Source: Buxus sempervirens (Eukaryota; Streptophyta; Magnoliopsida; Buxales; Buxaceae). Taken from it: a stretch of 64,000 nt of DNA. This document shows positions 16,932 through 63,905 of this stretch, piece by piece. The notes under the pieces were generated by a model that saw only the letters and a list, made by a program, of their open reading frames with translations, did not search any database and was not told the origin of the DNA. Positions within the stretch are counted from its first letter, which is position 1; each line of letters starts with the position of its first letter. Position numbers and translations under genes: made by a program. The DNA lies in contig OX387185.1 of NCBI GenBank assembly GCA_947561395.2, positions 44,340,602-44,404,601 of the forward strand. The letters are read 5' to 3'.

Positions 16932-17257
16932 CTGCTCTACTTATCTAGGCATTACTAAAGCAAAGGTATATTCTCTAGGATTTTGGCCCTCTTTTTATTT
17001 TACCATCACAAATCCATTGAAAATCCCTAAAAGACTATATGTCCAATATAAAACATCCACCCAAAATTTTCCCTTTTTTATCCAGCGATTACCCGTTCAT
17101 TATTCTCTAAAAAAAACTACCTACTAGAGAGAGATGCGTAGTATCTGTAGACACCCCAAATTGTACTAAAACATAAGAAAATAATAAAAATATGTTTAAA
17201 ATATCTTAATTGAATTTTGACATGTATCAAAACCTTAAAATCGGCAAAACATGTGTT

Positions 17258-17339
17258 GTCCGTATTTATTATACGGATTTCTCCATTTTTGTTCTATCCG
17301 TATATAGTATACGGACACACCCGAATTTAATATACGGGC
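17258..17339. repeat. Three CCGTA...TACGG palindromes in solo LTR D
   Basis: Palindromic units begin at 17258, 17296 and 17319. They have half-sites TCCGTAT/ATACGGA or CCCG/CGGG around an AT centre, the same design as in the 2.4 kb LTRs. The 28-bp spacing seen there is not kept here. Confidence 0.65.
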
Positions 17340-45833: not shown

Positions 45834-46040
45834 CCCCATGTGCGCACCAAAATCTGCCTTGATTGCACACGAGGCGCACGTGGGATCGTGCGTGCCTCGG
45901 GACTTTCGGAGTCGCTACTGCCTGAGAGGTGCAGGCAGACACGGGAATTGCCTATTCGGATCTAAGTCTGGTCTGCGGTTTATTAGAGATCTAACTAAAT
46001 TCTTGATTACATATGGGGAAGTCTGAAGACAACCACCACC

Positions 46041-46072
<32 letters not shown>

Positions 46073-46600
46073 TCGGTTTGACGGGTCTCTTGGGCCTAAT
46101 TGGTTTTTGAGTCAGTTTTCACTCTTCCTAGACCAGCATGTGTCTTTTTGGGTCTAGCGGGGTCCTCTGGAGGTGTGAGCCCCTTTTTATTTCATTTTTT
46201 TTATCTTTTTATTTAAGTGAGATGGGTCGAGTACAAGCCCCTTTGGAAGGCATGTGGGTTGCCAAGTTTGGGCTTGGGCCTAGTAGGGTTATTGGGTAAC
46301 CCTCATTGTTTTGTTCATCTAATTTCACAAGGTTAAAAGGTTCAATGGGATTGGCTTAGGCCCATGAATTGCTACACAAGTGGCCTTGGGCCCGTTTGTT
46401 GAAAACGGGTCTGGTTTGGGCCGGTCAATATGTGGGCTCCGTAGGTGAGCCCAGGAGGCCTTGGTGGGCTTATTTAGGCCCATGGTCCATAATGGGGTTA
46501 AGAATAGCCCAAAGCTGCCAAAAAGTCAGGTTAGGCCGGTTCGGCTCGGATCAAGTCCAACCGGGCCGAAAAAGTTAAATTTTTAGTTACTTTATCAAAT

Positions 46601-46705
46601 GACAGTATTTACTATACGGTCTAGTCTAGACCGTAAATGAAATACGTTTCAGGCCAGACCGTATATCAAATACGGGCTCGCCTGGATCGTACAAAAAATA
46701 CGGTT
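46601..46705. repeat. Palindrome array A2: four units at an exact 28-bp step
   Basis: 21-bp units start at 46601, 46629, 46657 and 46685. Each has the form GACCGTA, seven variable bases, TACGGTC, with some drift. The spacers are 7 bp. The array lies about 0.8 kb downstream of the TATA box of LTR A. Confidence 0.9.
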
Positions 46706-47473
46706 TCTACCTGATTTTTGAGTTTTTGGCCGATTTCGGCCAATCTTCTGGGATCTCCGGCTGCTTCTATTGGCCTTCTCATCATTTTTGCTGTGGTACA
46801 AATGCTTCACATTTGCTCCTAGTCTTCATTCTTCTTCTTTAATACACCACCATTTACAAATTCACATGCATGGAGATCTCTAAAAGAAGATGAAGTGGGG
46901 AGTTCACAGGATACAACACATTTCTAAAAGTGCAAATTTCTCTATGATGGTAGACAAAATGAGTTGGTCAGATTAACTTAATGGTTAGTTAAAATGTCCT
47001 TTTTAGCTTAAATTTGCTTTCCTCCTTTTTTATAGAAATCACCACCTCGAATCAAATCTCTCATGACGTATCACAGATAACAAACAGGTTAGAAACGATG
47101 TAGTAAAAGCAAAATATAGACAAGAAAATTGGAAAGATATCAAAGTAATTACATTCCACTTATGTTAAATGCGAAGTTATAGAAATACTTACAGTATCGC
47201 CACTTGCTTGTTTTGGTATGATGTAGTTCTCCGAATGATTTCGGTAGCGCTTCCACACTCTGGTTGATTCTCCAAAGTTGATTCAAACAGGGGTTCACTG
47301 GGTTTTCATGCTCAAAGGGTGAAAAGGAAGAGTTTAGACAGGGTTTAGGGGCAAAACAGACATTTAGATTGGAAGCAACGGAGGTTGGGCAGGGTTTGGA
47401 CGTGGAAAAGTCGAGGAAGGAAAGGGAGAGGGCTTAAAGGGGCCAGCTTACCCAAATGGTGAGGGCTGGCCCT

Positions 47474-47483
47474 TTATTTATAG
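47474..47483 (-). promoter_or_regulatory. TATA box of solo LTR A
   Basis: On the minus strand TTTTGCCTATAAATAAAGG; the same context (TTTTGCCTATAAATAGAG) occurs in LTRs B and C. The first palindrome begins about 12 bp upstream of it. Confidence 0.75.
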
Positions 47484-47495
47484 GCAAAATTTTCT

Positions 47496-47712
47496 GACCG
47501 TATTTGTTATACGGTCACGGTATGCCCGTATTACAAATACGAGCATGACACAACAATAAATCAAGTACGGCCGCGCCGCCCTCGTGCGTAAATTCCGCAC
47601 GAATCCTCCGTACGGGACGCGTGTCGCTCCGTACAGCGATGCGTGTCCCCTTCTAGAAGCCATGACCATATTTATTATACGATCATACCTTGACCGTAGA
47701 GGAAATACGGTC
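47496..47712. repeat. Palindrome array A1: two pairs of units
   Basis: 21-bp units start at 47496 and 47524, and at 47664 and 47692; within each pair the step is exactly 28 bp. Half-sites are mostly GACCGTA/TACGGTC. Between the pairs lies ACGCGTGTC and CTTCTAGAAG, conserved in all three copies. Confidence 0.9.
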
Positions 47713-48355
47713 ACGCACGTTTTTTAAAATGTTGGATTTGAAAATTTTTGTTAAATTTGACTTATTTAAAGATTTTATTCGATTTTCTTATTATTTTATT
47801 AAAAAAAATCTTAAGATTCTTCATCATTACCATATTAAAATATTAAAATATCTTTTATTGAATGGTTTTTATTTATTTGGCTTTTTGCAGCTGTTTTTGT
47901 CACATGGGCAGTTTTTCTAAAACTTCAGCTTCTAAAACTTCAGTTGCACATAACTTCTTCGTCCGACGTCCGATTTCAACAAACTTGGTGTTGTTGAAAT
48001 CGGCTCGGAACCCACTATCCACTGGGATCAATTTAGGCAATTGTATTAGGGTTGAGCAAAAAGTCAACTTTTCACTCTCCAAAAGTTTGACCGGTTCATA
48101 ACTTTCTCATTCGGACTCCGATTCGAGCAAATTCAGTTGCGTTGGAACCGGGTAAAAGTGCTCTTTTCAATGAGATGAAATTTGATGGCAAAATTTGCTT
48201 GAATCAAAAAGTCAAATTTTTTATCCCCTCAGGGTTTGACTTTTCACTTTTCTTCATTTTAGGAGTACAAAAATCAAGTGCTAACACCCCAATCAAACGG
48301 AAGTTAGCTTATCCTGATAATAGGGGTGCTTATCGGATCGGGCCTTGGGTGGCAC

Positions 48356-58568: not shown

Positions 58569-59143
58569 CACTCTGTTAGCACCTGATTTTTGCACCCAAA
58601 AAAATGCAGAAAATGAAAATTTCAACTAAAAAGTCAAACCCTGAGAGGGCCAAAATTTGACTTTTTGATCCAAAGAAAATTGGCCATCAAACTTCCTCTC
58701 ATTGAAAAGAGCATTTCGACACGGTTCTAACGCAACTGAGTTTGCCAGAATCGGGGTCCGGATGAGGAAGTTATGAGCCGGTCAAACTTCTGGGGAAGCG
58801 AAAGTTGACTTTTTGCTCGACCCCAATTCAACTGCCCAATTTGATCCCAGTGGATAGTGGGTTCCGAGCTGATTCCAACGACACCAAATTTGCTGAAATC
58901 GGACATCAGACAGAAAAGTTATGGGCAGTTGAAGTTTCAAGAAAGCTGCCCATGTGGCAAAACAGCAGCAAAAAGCAGAATAGATAAAATAAATAAGTAA
59001 ATAAATCATATCTTTATTTTTTTAATAATATTTTAATAAAAGAATCTCGTTTTATAATATAATAATCAAAAAATCGGATAAAAATCTTTAAATAAGTCAA
59101 ATTTAATAAAGCATTTGAAATCCAACATTTTAAAAACGTGCTG

Positions 59144-59330
59144 GACCGTATTTGAAGTACGGGCGAGGCATGCCCGTATTTCAAATACGGGCAAGTTTCT
59201 AGAAGGGGACGCGTGTCGCTGTACGGCGGGACACGCGTCCCGTACGGCCGATTTTGCGGGATTTGAAAATGTGCGTTTTTCGCCCGTACTTGAAGTACGA
59301 GCAAGGCATGCCCGTACTTCAAATACGGGC
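59144..59330. repeat. Palindrome array B1: two pairs of units
   Basis: 21-bp units start at 59144 and 59172, and at 59282 and 59310; the step within each pair is exactly 28 bp. Half-sites are GCCCGTA/TACGGGC, whereas LTR A has GACCGTA/TACGGTC. Spacers are GAGGCAT and AAGGCAT. Between the pairs lies another inverted pair, ACGCGTGTC and GACACGCGT. Confidence 0.95.
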
Positions 59331-59344
59331 ACGAAAATTTTGCC

Positions 59345-59353
59345 TATAAATAG
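59345..59353 (+). promoter_or_regulatory. TATA box of solo LTR B
   Basis: TATAAATAG in the context TTTTGCCTATAAATAGAG, 14 bp after the last palindrome. Transcription would start near 59375. Confidence 0.8.
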
Positions 59354-60135
59354 AGAGGCCACCCCCCTCATTTCAACAAGCTGGTCCCTTTGGCCTTCCC
59401 CCCTCTCCTTCCTTGGCATTTTTACGCCGAAGCCCTGCCTCCACTCTGTCAGCATCTATCCCAATGACCAAAATGCCCCTGTGCTGCCCAAAACTTGCCT
59501 AAATCTTGCTTTTTCACCCTTTTAGCATAGGAAACCCAGTGAACCCCTGTTCAAACCAATTCGTGAAATCCAACAGGGGTGCGGGAGCGCTGTCGAAATT
59601 CTCCGGAGAACCACAATCAAGAAGGTATTTGTATGGTAAAGAGTTCTTTTATATCTATACAAATCCTTCTTTCTTTTGTTAATTTCTTTACTTGATATTA
59701 CACTAACCTGTTTATTGAAGTTCTGCATGACTAGAGATGCCTCATGCACCTCTATACGAGAAGAAGAAGAATGGTTTTAGGAAAGCCTTAAAGGCTACTT
59801 GGACTAATACAATTTTCAGGGCTTCATCTTTCTCATTCATTTCGGAAGAGTTTGATTTCTTAATAAGTCTATTGTACCCCAAATTCTAAATCCCTCTTTC
59901 CTATTCTCCTTGATTATGGTCGTGCATCATGAAGGTTGATCATATAAAGCGGGGAAGAATGTGAAACCGATCCTCTTGGCGAGCATTGAAGAAGGAAGCC
60001 ATGCAAGTCTAAGAATAAGACATTTTCGTCACTGTAAATAGGCTGCAAAACCTTGACAGACGTTGCAGAACATCCCAAGAGGACCATGGAACTGATTCCG
60101 GTCGAAATTGGCACTAAAATGCAAGTTCGGATGAA

Positions 60136-60240
60136 AACCGTATACTCAGAGCGGTCCAGGCGTGCCCGTAGTTAATCTACGGTCTGGCCTGAACCGTATT
60201 AAAATTACGGTTCTGACCAGACCGTGAATTAAATACGGTC
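60136..60240. repeat. Palindrome array B2: four units at an exact 28-bp step
   Basis: 21-bp units start at 60136, 60164, 60192 and 60220. Half-sites vary from unit to unit (AACCGTA, GCCCGTA, AACCGTA, GACCGTG) and their partners vary with them in most cases. It corresponds in position to array A2. Confidence 0.9.
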
Positions 60241-61041
60241 ACTCGATACAATAACTTAAAAAATTAATTTTTCGGACCCGGTTGGACACAATCCGACCCA
60301 TTTAAACTTGATCCGACTAATTGGGCTTCTTGGGTAATTCCAAGCCAATTCTTGAGACTGTGGGCCTAAGTGGGCCCACCAAGGCTTCATGGGCCCTCCA
60401 ATGGGGCCCACATCCCAACTGGCCTAACCAAAGCCCGTTTTGATAAACGGACTAAAGGCCACATGATTAATTGCCCATGGGTCAAATCCAAGCCCATTGG
60501 GCCCTAAAAGACATCAATCCACTAACTTTGTAAATATAAATAAATCTTTAAACCAAATAGCTATAATCCAATAAGGGTTACCTAATAACCCGGACTGGGC
60601 CTTGGGCTTGACTTAAGCTCAATTTGGAATCCACTGGGCCTTCCAACGGGGCCCATACCAGACCCACTTCACTAACTTAATAAAAAGATAAAATCAAATA
60701 AAAAGGGGACCCACACCATCAACGGTCCCCACCAGACCAAATAAGTGTGCATGCTGGCTTAGGAATTGGGTGAAAACTAAGTTGACTCAAGACCAAGGAG
60801 ACCCACGGGACCTGTCAATCGACGGGGCGGGCTAGGGTATCTTCGGGCTTCCCTAGACGTAACCGAGAACTTACTCAGAACTCTAATAAGCCGCAGACCA
60901 GAATCATTAGGCCCGAATAAGTGCCCCTTTTGTGTCTGCCTGCACCTCTCAGGCAGTGGCGACTCCAAACCAGTCCCGAGGCGAGCATCACATCAGCATG
61001 CACCTCGTCGTGCGGCCCGAAATCGTGGTGCGCACACACTC

Positions 61042-61385: not shown

Positions 61386-62176
61386 GTTGACATTGTTTCC
61401 GACTAAGAATGATTTTTCATAAATGACATTGTGCGCACCTAAACCTGGCCTAGATCGCACACCGGGCGCACTTTCAGTGCGTGCCTCGGGACTTTAGGAG
61501 TCGCCACTGCCTGAGAGTGCAGGCAGACACGGTTTTGCCCTAACCGGGTCTAAGTCTGGTCTGCGGCTTATTAGAGATCTAGCTAAGTCCTCGGTTACGG
61601 TTCGGGGAAGTCCTAAAGACACCCCGGTCCGCCCCATCGGTCTGATGGGTCCCTCGGGTCTCCTTGGTTTTTTGAGTCAATTTCACCCTTTTCCTAGGCC
61701 AGCATGCTATCTTATTAGGTCTGGCGGGGCCCTCTGAAGGTGTGGGTCCCCCTTTATCTTGATTTTATCTTTTTATTTATCTAAGTGAAGTGGGTCGGAC
61801 CCGGGTCCCGTTGGAAGACCCGTGGGCTGCCATGGTTAGGCCTTGGGCCCAGTTGGGTTATTGGGTAACCTATTTAGTTATTTTATTAAGTTTTATTTAT
61901 TTACAATTTTAGTTTGGGCTCAATGGGCTTGGAATGGGCCCATTAGCCAAAGTCCAGTTTGGGCCCGTTTTATTGAAAACGGGCCGGGTTTGGGCCGGTC
62001 TAAGATGGGCCCCACAAGTGGGCCCAGGGTGGTCTTAGTGGGCCTGTTTGGGCCTATAGTCCAAATAATGGGCTTAAGATAGCCCACATTATTTAAGGAA
62101 CTGGTTCAGGCCGGTTTGGGTTGAATTGGGTTCAACCGAGCCACATAAATTAGTTTTTTAGTCATTTTTCTAATCT

Positions 62177-62225
62177 AACCGTACTCTTAGTGCGGTTTGG
62201 TCAGAACCGTTCTGTGTGTGCGGTT
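62177..62225. repeat. Palindrome array C2: two units at a 28-bp step
   Basis: 21-bp units start at 62177 and 62205, half-sites AACCGTA/TGCGGTT and AACCGTT/TGCGGTT. It corresponds to arrays A2 and B2 but has only two units. Confidence 0.85.
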
Positions 62226-63020
62226 GCTGCTCAGTTTCACTTGTTTGCGCCGATTTCAATCTGGATCACTTTGGTGACTTCTCTGGGACTTCTGGTAACC
62301 TCCACCGGGCTTCTGCTTTCCTTCCAGGTCTTACATTTTCTTCATTTGGCTTATAAAGCCATTTCTTCTCTTTTTCACTTTCTTTGGAGTCATGGGCTTC
62401 CTTCTTCTTCTTTTTTTTATTTGCTCAAACAACCACAGCCATTATTCAAGAGGAAAAGGGGAACTTACAGGGATGTGACTGATCTTAAGAGGGCAAAATT
62501 TTCTCATGAAAATTGGTTAATCCAATAAACTTAAAAGTTAGTCAAGGTGTCTTGTCTTCCTTTGAGACACATTCTTCCCCTTTTTTTTGTTCATGGGACC
62601 ATCACCCTGAATCGAGATCCTTGTAGCTTTAAACAACTACTAAGATGGTTAGAGCAAAATGCATAAAAACTTAAAAGGAATTGAGGATAATCTCATTGTA
62701 AAAAAAAATACTTACAATAAGACTACTTGTTAGTCTTGATAAGTTGTGGTTCTTCCAAGTAAATTTGGCAGCGCTTCCGCGTCCCGTTGGTTTTCTCAGA
62801 TTGAATTTGAAAAAGTTTAGTTAGGTTCTTTGTATTCCAAGGGTGAGAGAAAAGGGTTTAGGCAAGTAAGGGTATTTTGGGGATTTGAGGTTGGGTTTAG
62901 GAGGTGGCAGAACCTGGGCAGGGTTTCGGCCAAGTAGGAGACAGAGGGAGAGAGTGGGGACCAAAGGGGGAAGGCTTGTTTCAAATGGGGGGGGGGGGGG
63001 GGGGGGGGGGGGGTGGCCCT

Positions 63021-63030
63021 CTATTTATAG
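63021..63030 (-). promoter_or_regulatory. TATA box of solo LTR C
   Basis: CTATAAATAG on the minus strand in the context TTTTTTGCCTATAAATAG, as in LTRs A and B. Confidence 0.75.
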
Positions 63031-63045
63031 GCAAAAAAGTGTCGG

Positions 63046-63297
63046 AACCGTACTTCAAGTGCGGTTTGGTCACAACCGTACTTGAAGTGCGGTTGTGACA
63101 AAATTGTACTAAAAAATCAAAAACCGCACTTTAAGTGCGGTTGGCATTCAACACGTGCAAATCTGCGCGAATCTGCCAGCTGTCGCCGTACAGGACACGC
63201 GTCCACCTTCTAGAAGATCGAACCGTATCTGAAGTGCGGTTTGGATCAAACCGTATCTGAAGTGCGGTTTGGATCAAACCGTACTTTAAGTGCGGTT
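63046..63297. repeat. Palindrome array C1: six clear units plus one decayed
   Basis: 21-bp units start at 63046, 63074, (63102, decayed), 63122, and at 63221, 63249 and 63277. The steps 63046-63074 and 63221-63249-63277 are exactly 28 bp. Half-sites are AACCGTA or AACCGCA with partners TGCGGTT. CTTCTAGAAG and ACACGCGT lie between the two groups as in A and B. Confidence 0.95.
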
Positions 63298-63905
63298 TCG
63301 CACGTTTTTTAAATGTCAGATCCGAAATCTTTTATTCAATTTGATTTAATTAAAGATTCTTGCCCGATTTTCTTAATATTTTATTAAAAAATCTAAGATT
63401 GTATTATTAAAATATTAAGATACTTTTTATTTAAATGTTAATATATTAAGATATGTTTTATTAAATGTTTTTTTATTGATTTTGTTAATTCATTTTGCTT
63501 TTTTGCTGCTATTCTGCCAAACGGGCAGTTTTCTTGAAACTTCAACTGCCCATAACTTCTTCATCTGGTGTCCGATTTCAGCAAACTTAGTGTCGTTGGA
63601 ATCAGCTCGGAACCAGTTATCTATTGAGATCAATTTTGGCAGTTGGATTGGGGTCAAGCAAAAAGTCAACTTTTTGCTTTCTAGAAGTTTGACCGGGCCA
63701 TATTTTTCTCACCTGGACTCCGATTTCAGCAAACTCAGTTGCGTTAGAACCGTGTCGAAATGCTCTTTTCAATGATATAAAGTTCGATGGCCAAATTTCC
63801 TTAATTGGAAAAGTCAATTTTTTGACCCCCTCAGGGTTTGACTGAAAGTTTGACTTTTCATTTTTTGCCATTTTAGGAGTACAAAAATCAGGTGTCTACA
63901 GACAT

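Follow-up and report, generated by a model that had tools for sequence, protein, structure and literature searches.

The window (the entire 64-kb stretch of DNA analysed) carries on its plus strand a solo LTR of 2463 bp, LTR B (58574–61036), with TG...CA ends and the TSD CACTC at 58569–58573 and 61037–61041. Its 3' end gave 40 scored matches at 93%–100% identity, the self-match being among the 40. Eight palindromic dyads are distributed over three arrays within this LTR: upstream array 1 (59144–59192, dyads at 59144 and 59172, which include exact pattern matches), upstream array 2 (59282–59330, dyads at 59282 and 59310), and a downstream array in what is presumably the transcribed portion of the LTR (60136–60240, dyads at 60136, 60164, 60192, and 60220, the middle two exact). 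Every one of the eight dyads claimed in the initial annotation was found where it had been placed. The form then ascribed to them, CCGTA-N7-TACGG, is exact in five (cores at 59146, 59174, 59312, 60166, and 60194), while the other three have one damaged arm, with 59282 ending in TACGA, 60136 ending in AGCGG, and 60220 beginning with CCGTG. Similarly, the claim that every adjacent step is 28 bp holds within each of the three arrays only, as the step from one upstream pair to the next is 110 bp. CCGTA-N7-TACGG is matched exactly 10 times in the window, whereas shuffled sequences led us to expect 0.01 matches. The LTR B body also contains, at 60957–60966, the sequence TGGCGACTCC, which resembles the tRNA-Arg primer-site sequence located after the LTR of a full-length copy.

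Two further solo LTRs in the window, both on the minus strand, belong to the same broad family as LTR B and carry arrays, to which the initial annotation does not refer. LTR A (61430–63900, TSD ATGTC) adjoins LTR B in reverse orientation, with dyads at 62177, 62205, 63046, 63074, 63122, 63221, 63249, and 63277. Dyads are more damaged in LTR C (45839–48286, TSD TGGGG), where arrays span 46601–46705, 47496–47572, and 47664–47712. Three other dyads, at steps of 38 and 23 bp, lie at 17258–17339 in a piece of an LTR that resembles the second LTR group described below (group II), with TGTAGACACCCCAAATTG at 17146. Long C and G homopolymer runs were also observed, at 46042–46071 in LTR C and 62987–63013 in LTR A.

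The upstream arrays occupy a fixed position relative to the TATA box. A TATA box, CTATAAATA, is located on the plus strand at 59344–59352, 32 bp beyond the point where the last upstream dyad core of LTR B begins, and this distance was 31–34 bp in nine of the 12 related LTR stretches over which the architecture was compared (LTRs A, B, and C, plus nine loci). Of the three exceptions, L004 shows a damaged dyad where the last one would be, L001 has lost the dyad, and L095 is without a TATA box in the stretch covered. A TTCnnGAA site, TTCTAGAA (59197–59204), which we take to be heat-shock-element-like, lies 23 bp beyond the point where the last core in array 1 begins, and an equivalent site at 23–24 bp was found in eight of the 12 stretches. 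Between the two upstream arrays of LTR B lies a palindrome built on ACGCGTGT / ACACGCGT (59209–59238), and at least one of these two words occurs in 10 of the 12. The segment at 59197–59238, with the heat-shock-element-like site followed by the palindrome, and its equivalents in related LTRs suggest a possible heat response.

In a pattern scan over the 676.5-Mb genome, in which counts of repeats can be lower bounds, CCGYA-N7-TRCGG was found 44,439 times, compared with 2,113 for the reversed pattern. When gaps of 0–30 bp were allowed, the forward pattern occurred 53,285 times, so that gap 7 accounts for 83% of all matches. The reversed wide-gap pattern was in fact commoner than the forward one (61,557 versus 53,285), and the enrichment is therefore specific to gap 7 rather than general. 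A dyad followed by another CCGYA within 0–30 bp was found 18,322 times genome-wide (control 56), with the next half-site at gap 11, equivalent to a 28-bp step, in 15,501 of these (85%; control 0). The tabulation of dyads and step sizes across the genome that the initial annotation had proposed as a check thus returned a sharp peak at 28 bp. Among the dyad pairs listed (n = 50, the first places on C1), 48 were at step 28 and the other two at 23 and 38, respectively, and among 100 listed places of a dyad with a following CCGYA, again the first on C1, 90 were at step 28. CCG-N11-CGG-N11-CCG occurred 28,546 times genome-wide, versus 2,450 for its control; given these counts and the 28-bp step, RMCCGYA half-sites flip orientation every 14 bp. 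We kept 66 distinct arrays of at least two units, a set biased to 28 bp because arrays were chained at that step, and these comprised two units in 32 cases, three in 11, four in 23, and more than four in none.

Collapsing the 66 arrays to 19 non-redundant ones left 124 half-sites, with the consensus R-M-C-C-G-Y-A. Positions 3, 4, 5, and 7 are nearly invariant (C in 117, C in 116, G in 119, and A in 110), the remaining positions being divided between G and A (87 and 36), A and C (70 and 46), and T and C (80 and 39), and most letters of the linker and N7 vary. The N7 is A/T-rich, with A or T at positions 2 and 6 in 102 and 105, respectively, of the 109 distinct sequences outside the upstream arrays of group I (the LTR B group), where it is close to YTTSAAR (20 distinct sequences from 19 arrays, assigned by position and homology). 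The linker often reads KYNNGNCNNRM, with the G in 76 and the C in 74 of the 96 distinct sequences among 100 listed 31-mers, which were the first listed places on C1 and retain a few chance matches. Half-site flavour is common to a whole array: within-array identity compared with permuted identity was 0.73 versus 0.57 at X1, 0.65 versus 0.46 at X2, and 0.73 versus 0.51 at Y. In one small family (17258–17339 in the window, L084, and L085), the dyad is kept at steps of 38 and 23 bp in three copies, the first dyad of L084 being degenerate, an indication that the unit is the CCG..CGG dyad, with a linker particular to each family. Besides this small family, some group II arrays also depart from the 28-bp step, their middle step being 27 bp.

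The composition of the half-sites bears on whether the arrays might serve silencing rather than activation, as a chromatin platform whose sites, dense in CG and CHG, would be recognized by a repressor of the host, a methylation reader, or a heterochromatin factor. Each half-site contains CCG, and of the 20 changes seen at its three core positions, 15 are C-to-T or G-to-A, the mark expected of decay in methylated copies. Such decay, however, strikes any CG of a silenced copy, and the fixed distance upstream of the TATA box suits promoter use instead, which leaves a silencing platform unlikely in our judgment.

With dyads masked, the array-bearing LTRs fell into two groups, with alignments within each: group I (LTRs A, B, and C, L001, L004, L022, and L034) and group II (L018, L030, L032, L036, L037, and L049). 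No alignment was found between the groups, except for ~430–600 bp of L037, which aligned with all but one of the seven group I members (E up to 1e-8). The array layout is thus common to LTR groups that, beyond the arrays themselves, have little or no homology. Group II LTRs start with TGTARACACCCCAAATTG, and the array lies ~104–206 bp from the start in five loci (L018, L030, L032, L037, and L049). LTR B, LTR C, and ten other group I copies have four dyads in their downstream arrays; LTR A has two. When 12 group I and eight group II arrays, picked for having four units, were compared, the first unit of the downstream array in group I, read antisense, and that of group II, read sense, were 0.55 identical over N7 plus linker; other cells of the matrix gave 0.28–0.40, and the opposite orientation up to 0.49. 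This similarity hints, without amounting to proof, at a common origin of the two arrays, one inverted relative to the other. Deep homology of the group I downstream (antisense) and group II (sense) arrays was considered and set aside, as only unit 1 stands out.

Within group I, conservation of N7 plus linker across the 12 four-unit downstream arrays, with self-comparisons excluded, was 0.70, 0.76, 0.73, and 0.49 for units 1–4, whereas different units were only 0.25–0.36 identical between copies and 0.31 within a copy, which is the background level. Being kept across copies yet unlike each other, the units look old and not re-duplicated, with the step still exact. Adjacent N7s are barely more alike than random ones (0.463 versus 0.411, sd 0.040, 29 pairs). 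Several observations speak against a passive relic, in which an ancestral 28-bp tandem duplication would have been inherited by many LTR families and have no present function: units within an array differ at their free letters while CCG/CGG and the spacing persist, upstream and downstream arrays have the same step under different N7 rules, and the distance from array to TATA box is fixed. It is true that 28-bp tandem units can arise by duplication, that one pair of adjacent units in LTR A has the same N7 and linker sequence, and that groups I and II may share the one unit noted above, but overall we consider a relic quite improbable.

We consider it probable, with moderate confidence, that the arrays serve in cis as regulatory lattices for protein binding on double-stranded DNA, made up of cooperative dimer sites that form a promoter-proximal enhancer and a second, downstream element. 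Each dyad, RMCCGYA-N7-TRCGGKY, would be one candidate site for a dimeric DNA-binding protein, and the linker, which is particular to each family and measures 7 bp in the majority of arrays seen, would let neighbouring dimers touch and bind cooperatively, a 7-bp linker giving the 28-bp step and the alternation of half-sites every 14 bp. A promoter-proximal enhancer is the most likely role in the LTR B group because its two short arrays flank the TTCnnGAA/ACACGCGT core and stop at a fixed distance before the TATA box, while the downstream array, with up to four dyads ~0.8 kb further on in the presumed transcribed leader, may act as a second, intragenic enhancer or as a boundary. We infer the protein itself, its dimeric nature, its cooperativity, and the activating sign of its effect. 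A half-site flavour shared across an array is what would be expected of a single factor reading all of it. Nonetheless, 28 bp does not correspond to an integral number of helical turns, and descent of the arrays from a single ancestor could preserve spacing and flavour without strong selection. Contact between neighbours need not be rigid, since the step is not universal (38 and 23 bp in one family, 27 bp midway through some arrays).

The initial annotation had left two readings side by side, cooperative protein binding and RNA hairpins. Under the latter, the dyad or the whole four-dyad array would fold in the transcript, or as single-stranded DNA, and feed small RNAs or packaging, as proposed for maize Sirevirus LTR palindromes. 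The downstream array of LTR B does fold well as RNA (−49.7 kcal/mol, z −6.5, with none of 200 shuffles as good), as does, less markedly, the downstream pair of LTR A (z −2.4, 7 of 200 shuffles as good), and palindromes in maize copia LTRs have been described as small-RNA mapping hotspots (PMC5311732, citing Bousios 2016). A good fold alone is not decisive, however, because palindromic sites fold well whatever their use. The arms were complementary in a global test (X2, 41 of 62 versus 28.2 expected, p 0.0003), but this global covariation vanished when arms were permuted within each of the 19 non-redundant arrays (X1, 47 versus 46.2; X2, 41 versus 41.0; Y/R, 40 versus 42.5, each of 62). As within-array permutation gives the same number, the apparent pairing reflects array-wide flavour rather than dyad-level compensation, and the N7 likewise showed no pairing excess over permuted letters. 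This lack of dyad-level pairing is a direct observation, as are the sites, their spacing and position, and the coherence of each array. On the sense strand, with 60 of the 66 arrays oriented, G-U-type wobble cells numbered 27 against 40 C-A/A-C mismatch cells (171 units), and there is therefore no RNA bias on that strand. Upstream arrays at a fixed distance before the TATA box also speak against hairpins, although U3 is present at the 3' end of retrotransposon RNA as well. Hairpins as the basis of the arrays are accordingly doubtful. Of the two initial readings, cooperative protein binding gains from the kept spacing, the freedom of most N7 and linker letters, and the fixed TATA distance, while the fold of the LTR B downstream array speaks for hairpins; a protein lattice on DNA is favoured.

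Several known types of site were considered as candidates for the reader of such a lattice, including Gal4-like CGG-N11-CCG sites and LOB-domain 'calipers', as well as VOZ (GCGT-N7-ACGC), NAC, SBP, MYB, and TCX sites. Among the papers listed by a literature search, no plant factor with the site of the arrays was found. The 'DOWN' promoter motif associated with MAIN/MAIL1 is CATGCAGTTT-like (PMC9899485), and was rejected as it bears, by eye, no resemblance to RMCCGYA.

LTR B-family ends that pair 9–10 kb apart mark probable full-length copies. One of these, on C8, has past its 5' LTR a primer site complementary at 18 of 18 bases, including CCA, to a host tRNA-Arg(ACG) gene. Non-chromoviruses use tRNA-Arg among other tRNAs (PMC6317226), and a non-Met primer site, for instance one fitting tRNA-Arg, is the feature of non-chromovirus Ty3 elements (OTA, Tat/Ogre/Retand) that was found here; placement of the LTR B family in Tat/Ogre is likely. 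The C8 copy encodes a gag domain (Retrotrans_gag, PF03732, 2.4e-13), with a Ty3_capsid match below its cut-off, and no pol domain was found in its 34 frames of at least 60 aa, in pieces covering ~88% of the interior; the few weak domain matches in these frames were all below family cut-offs. With gag found and no pol domain in the frames scanned, this copy looks gag-only, as judged from that portion of its interior. Such an interior may recall TR-GAG elements, in which LTRs surround an interior with only gag, or gag and protease (PMC6022998), the likeness coming from one copy scanned in pieces. The published class differs in being defined by its content and not by LTR arrays.

Repeated regulatory boxes are familiar from other plant elements. 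BI/BII of tobacco Tnt1 and other repeated U3 enhancer boxes lie upstream of the TATA box, bind host factors, and drive stress-induced transcription; they share with the arrays here the repetition of short boxes upstream of the TATA box, but belong to copia elements and have other sequences. VANDAL DNA transposons carry arrays of short motifs with a family-specific flavour, bound by VANC, their own anti-silencing protein, and are similar in that a transposon family keeps motif arrays of a family-specific flavour. By analogy with VANC-type proteins, the arrays might represent the DNA half of a co-evolving recognition system, in which a dimeric trans factor encoded by the host or by an autonomous partner would read all half-sites at once, and families would switch from RM-CCGTA to RM-CCGCA array-wide. 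We see a slim chance of this. VANDALs are DNA transposons with their own anti-silencing gene; none was identified for the LTR family here.

The closest known system is that of the Sirevirus CGG-CCG palindromes. Sirevirus LTRs contain palindromic CGG-CCG repeats, many of them upstream of the TATA box and at 8 to 32 copies per element, which have been called Sirevirus-specific (PMC2829016). In both systems the LTR contains a palindromic CGG/CCG motif many times over, with eight occurrences in LTR B. The Sirevirus core has the form CGG-(0 to several bases)-CCG, with no fixed step described in section 9 of PMC2829016, while the LTR arrays here are CCG-N11-CGG on a 14/28-bp lattice. The short-spacer CGG-CCG core is absent from the arrays, CGG-N11-CCG being present as the linker dyad, and Sirevirus motifs cluster, according to the same section, at no fewer than eight copies in the upper half of the LTR; LTR B also has eight, but four of them fall in the second half. 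Furthermore, the LTR B family has a Ty3-type gag and a tRNA-Arg primer site, and so falls outside the Ty1/copia SIRE lineage. The initial annotation knew of no described plant LTR with this layout, and our literature search, with most subscription journals outside its scope, similarly found none for the 28-bp dyad lattice. Palindromic regulatory repeats in plant LTRs are thus already known, and it is the exactness and abundance of the 28-bp lattice that are unusual. A site repeated ~44,000 times, mostly at exact spacing, constitutes a natural assay for the reader protein and for linker length versus cooperativity, and the existence of families at steps of 28, 27, 38, and 23 bp allows a direct test of the spacing rule. 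If the factor is host-encoded, these LTRs scatter thousands of multi-site platforms that could rewire nearby genes or titrate the factor; if it is encoded by the element, the arrays would represent a new kind of retrotransposon self-regulation.

A plant mobile domain (PMD) has been reported in 57% of Ogre elements (PMC6317226). One broken PMD/DUF7745 frame lies between two array-bearing LTRs at C1:41800–45800 (L005), where eight of the 12 listed frames were scanned. A link between PMD and the arrays was considered and rejected: the two flanking C1 LTRs are 82% alike in their best block, compared with 81% to LTR B, and, being no closer to each other than to LTR B, are not shown to be a pair. 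Among ten PMD places checked, none had a direct repeat joining its flanks, and three had a strict dyad within ~6 kb. Across the genome, a first look gave 8,448 candidate PMD genes, of which 117 were scored, and many of these are open frames of 575–590 aa, some in pairs ~3.4 kb apart.
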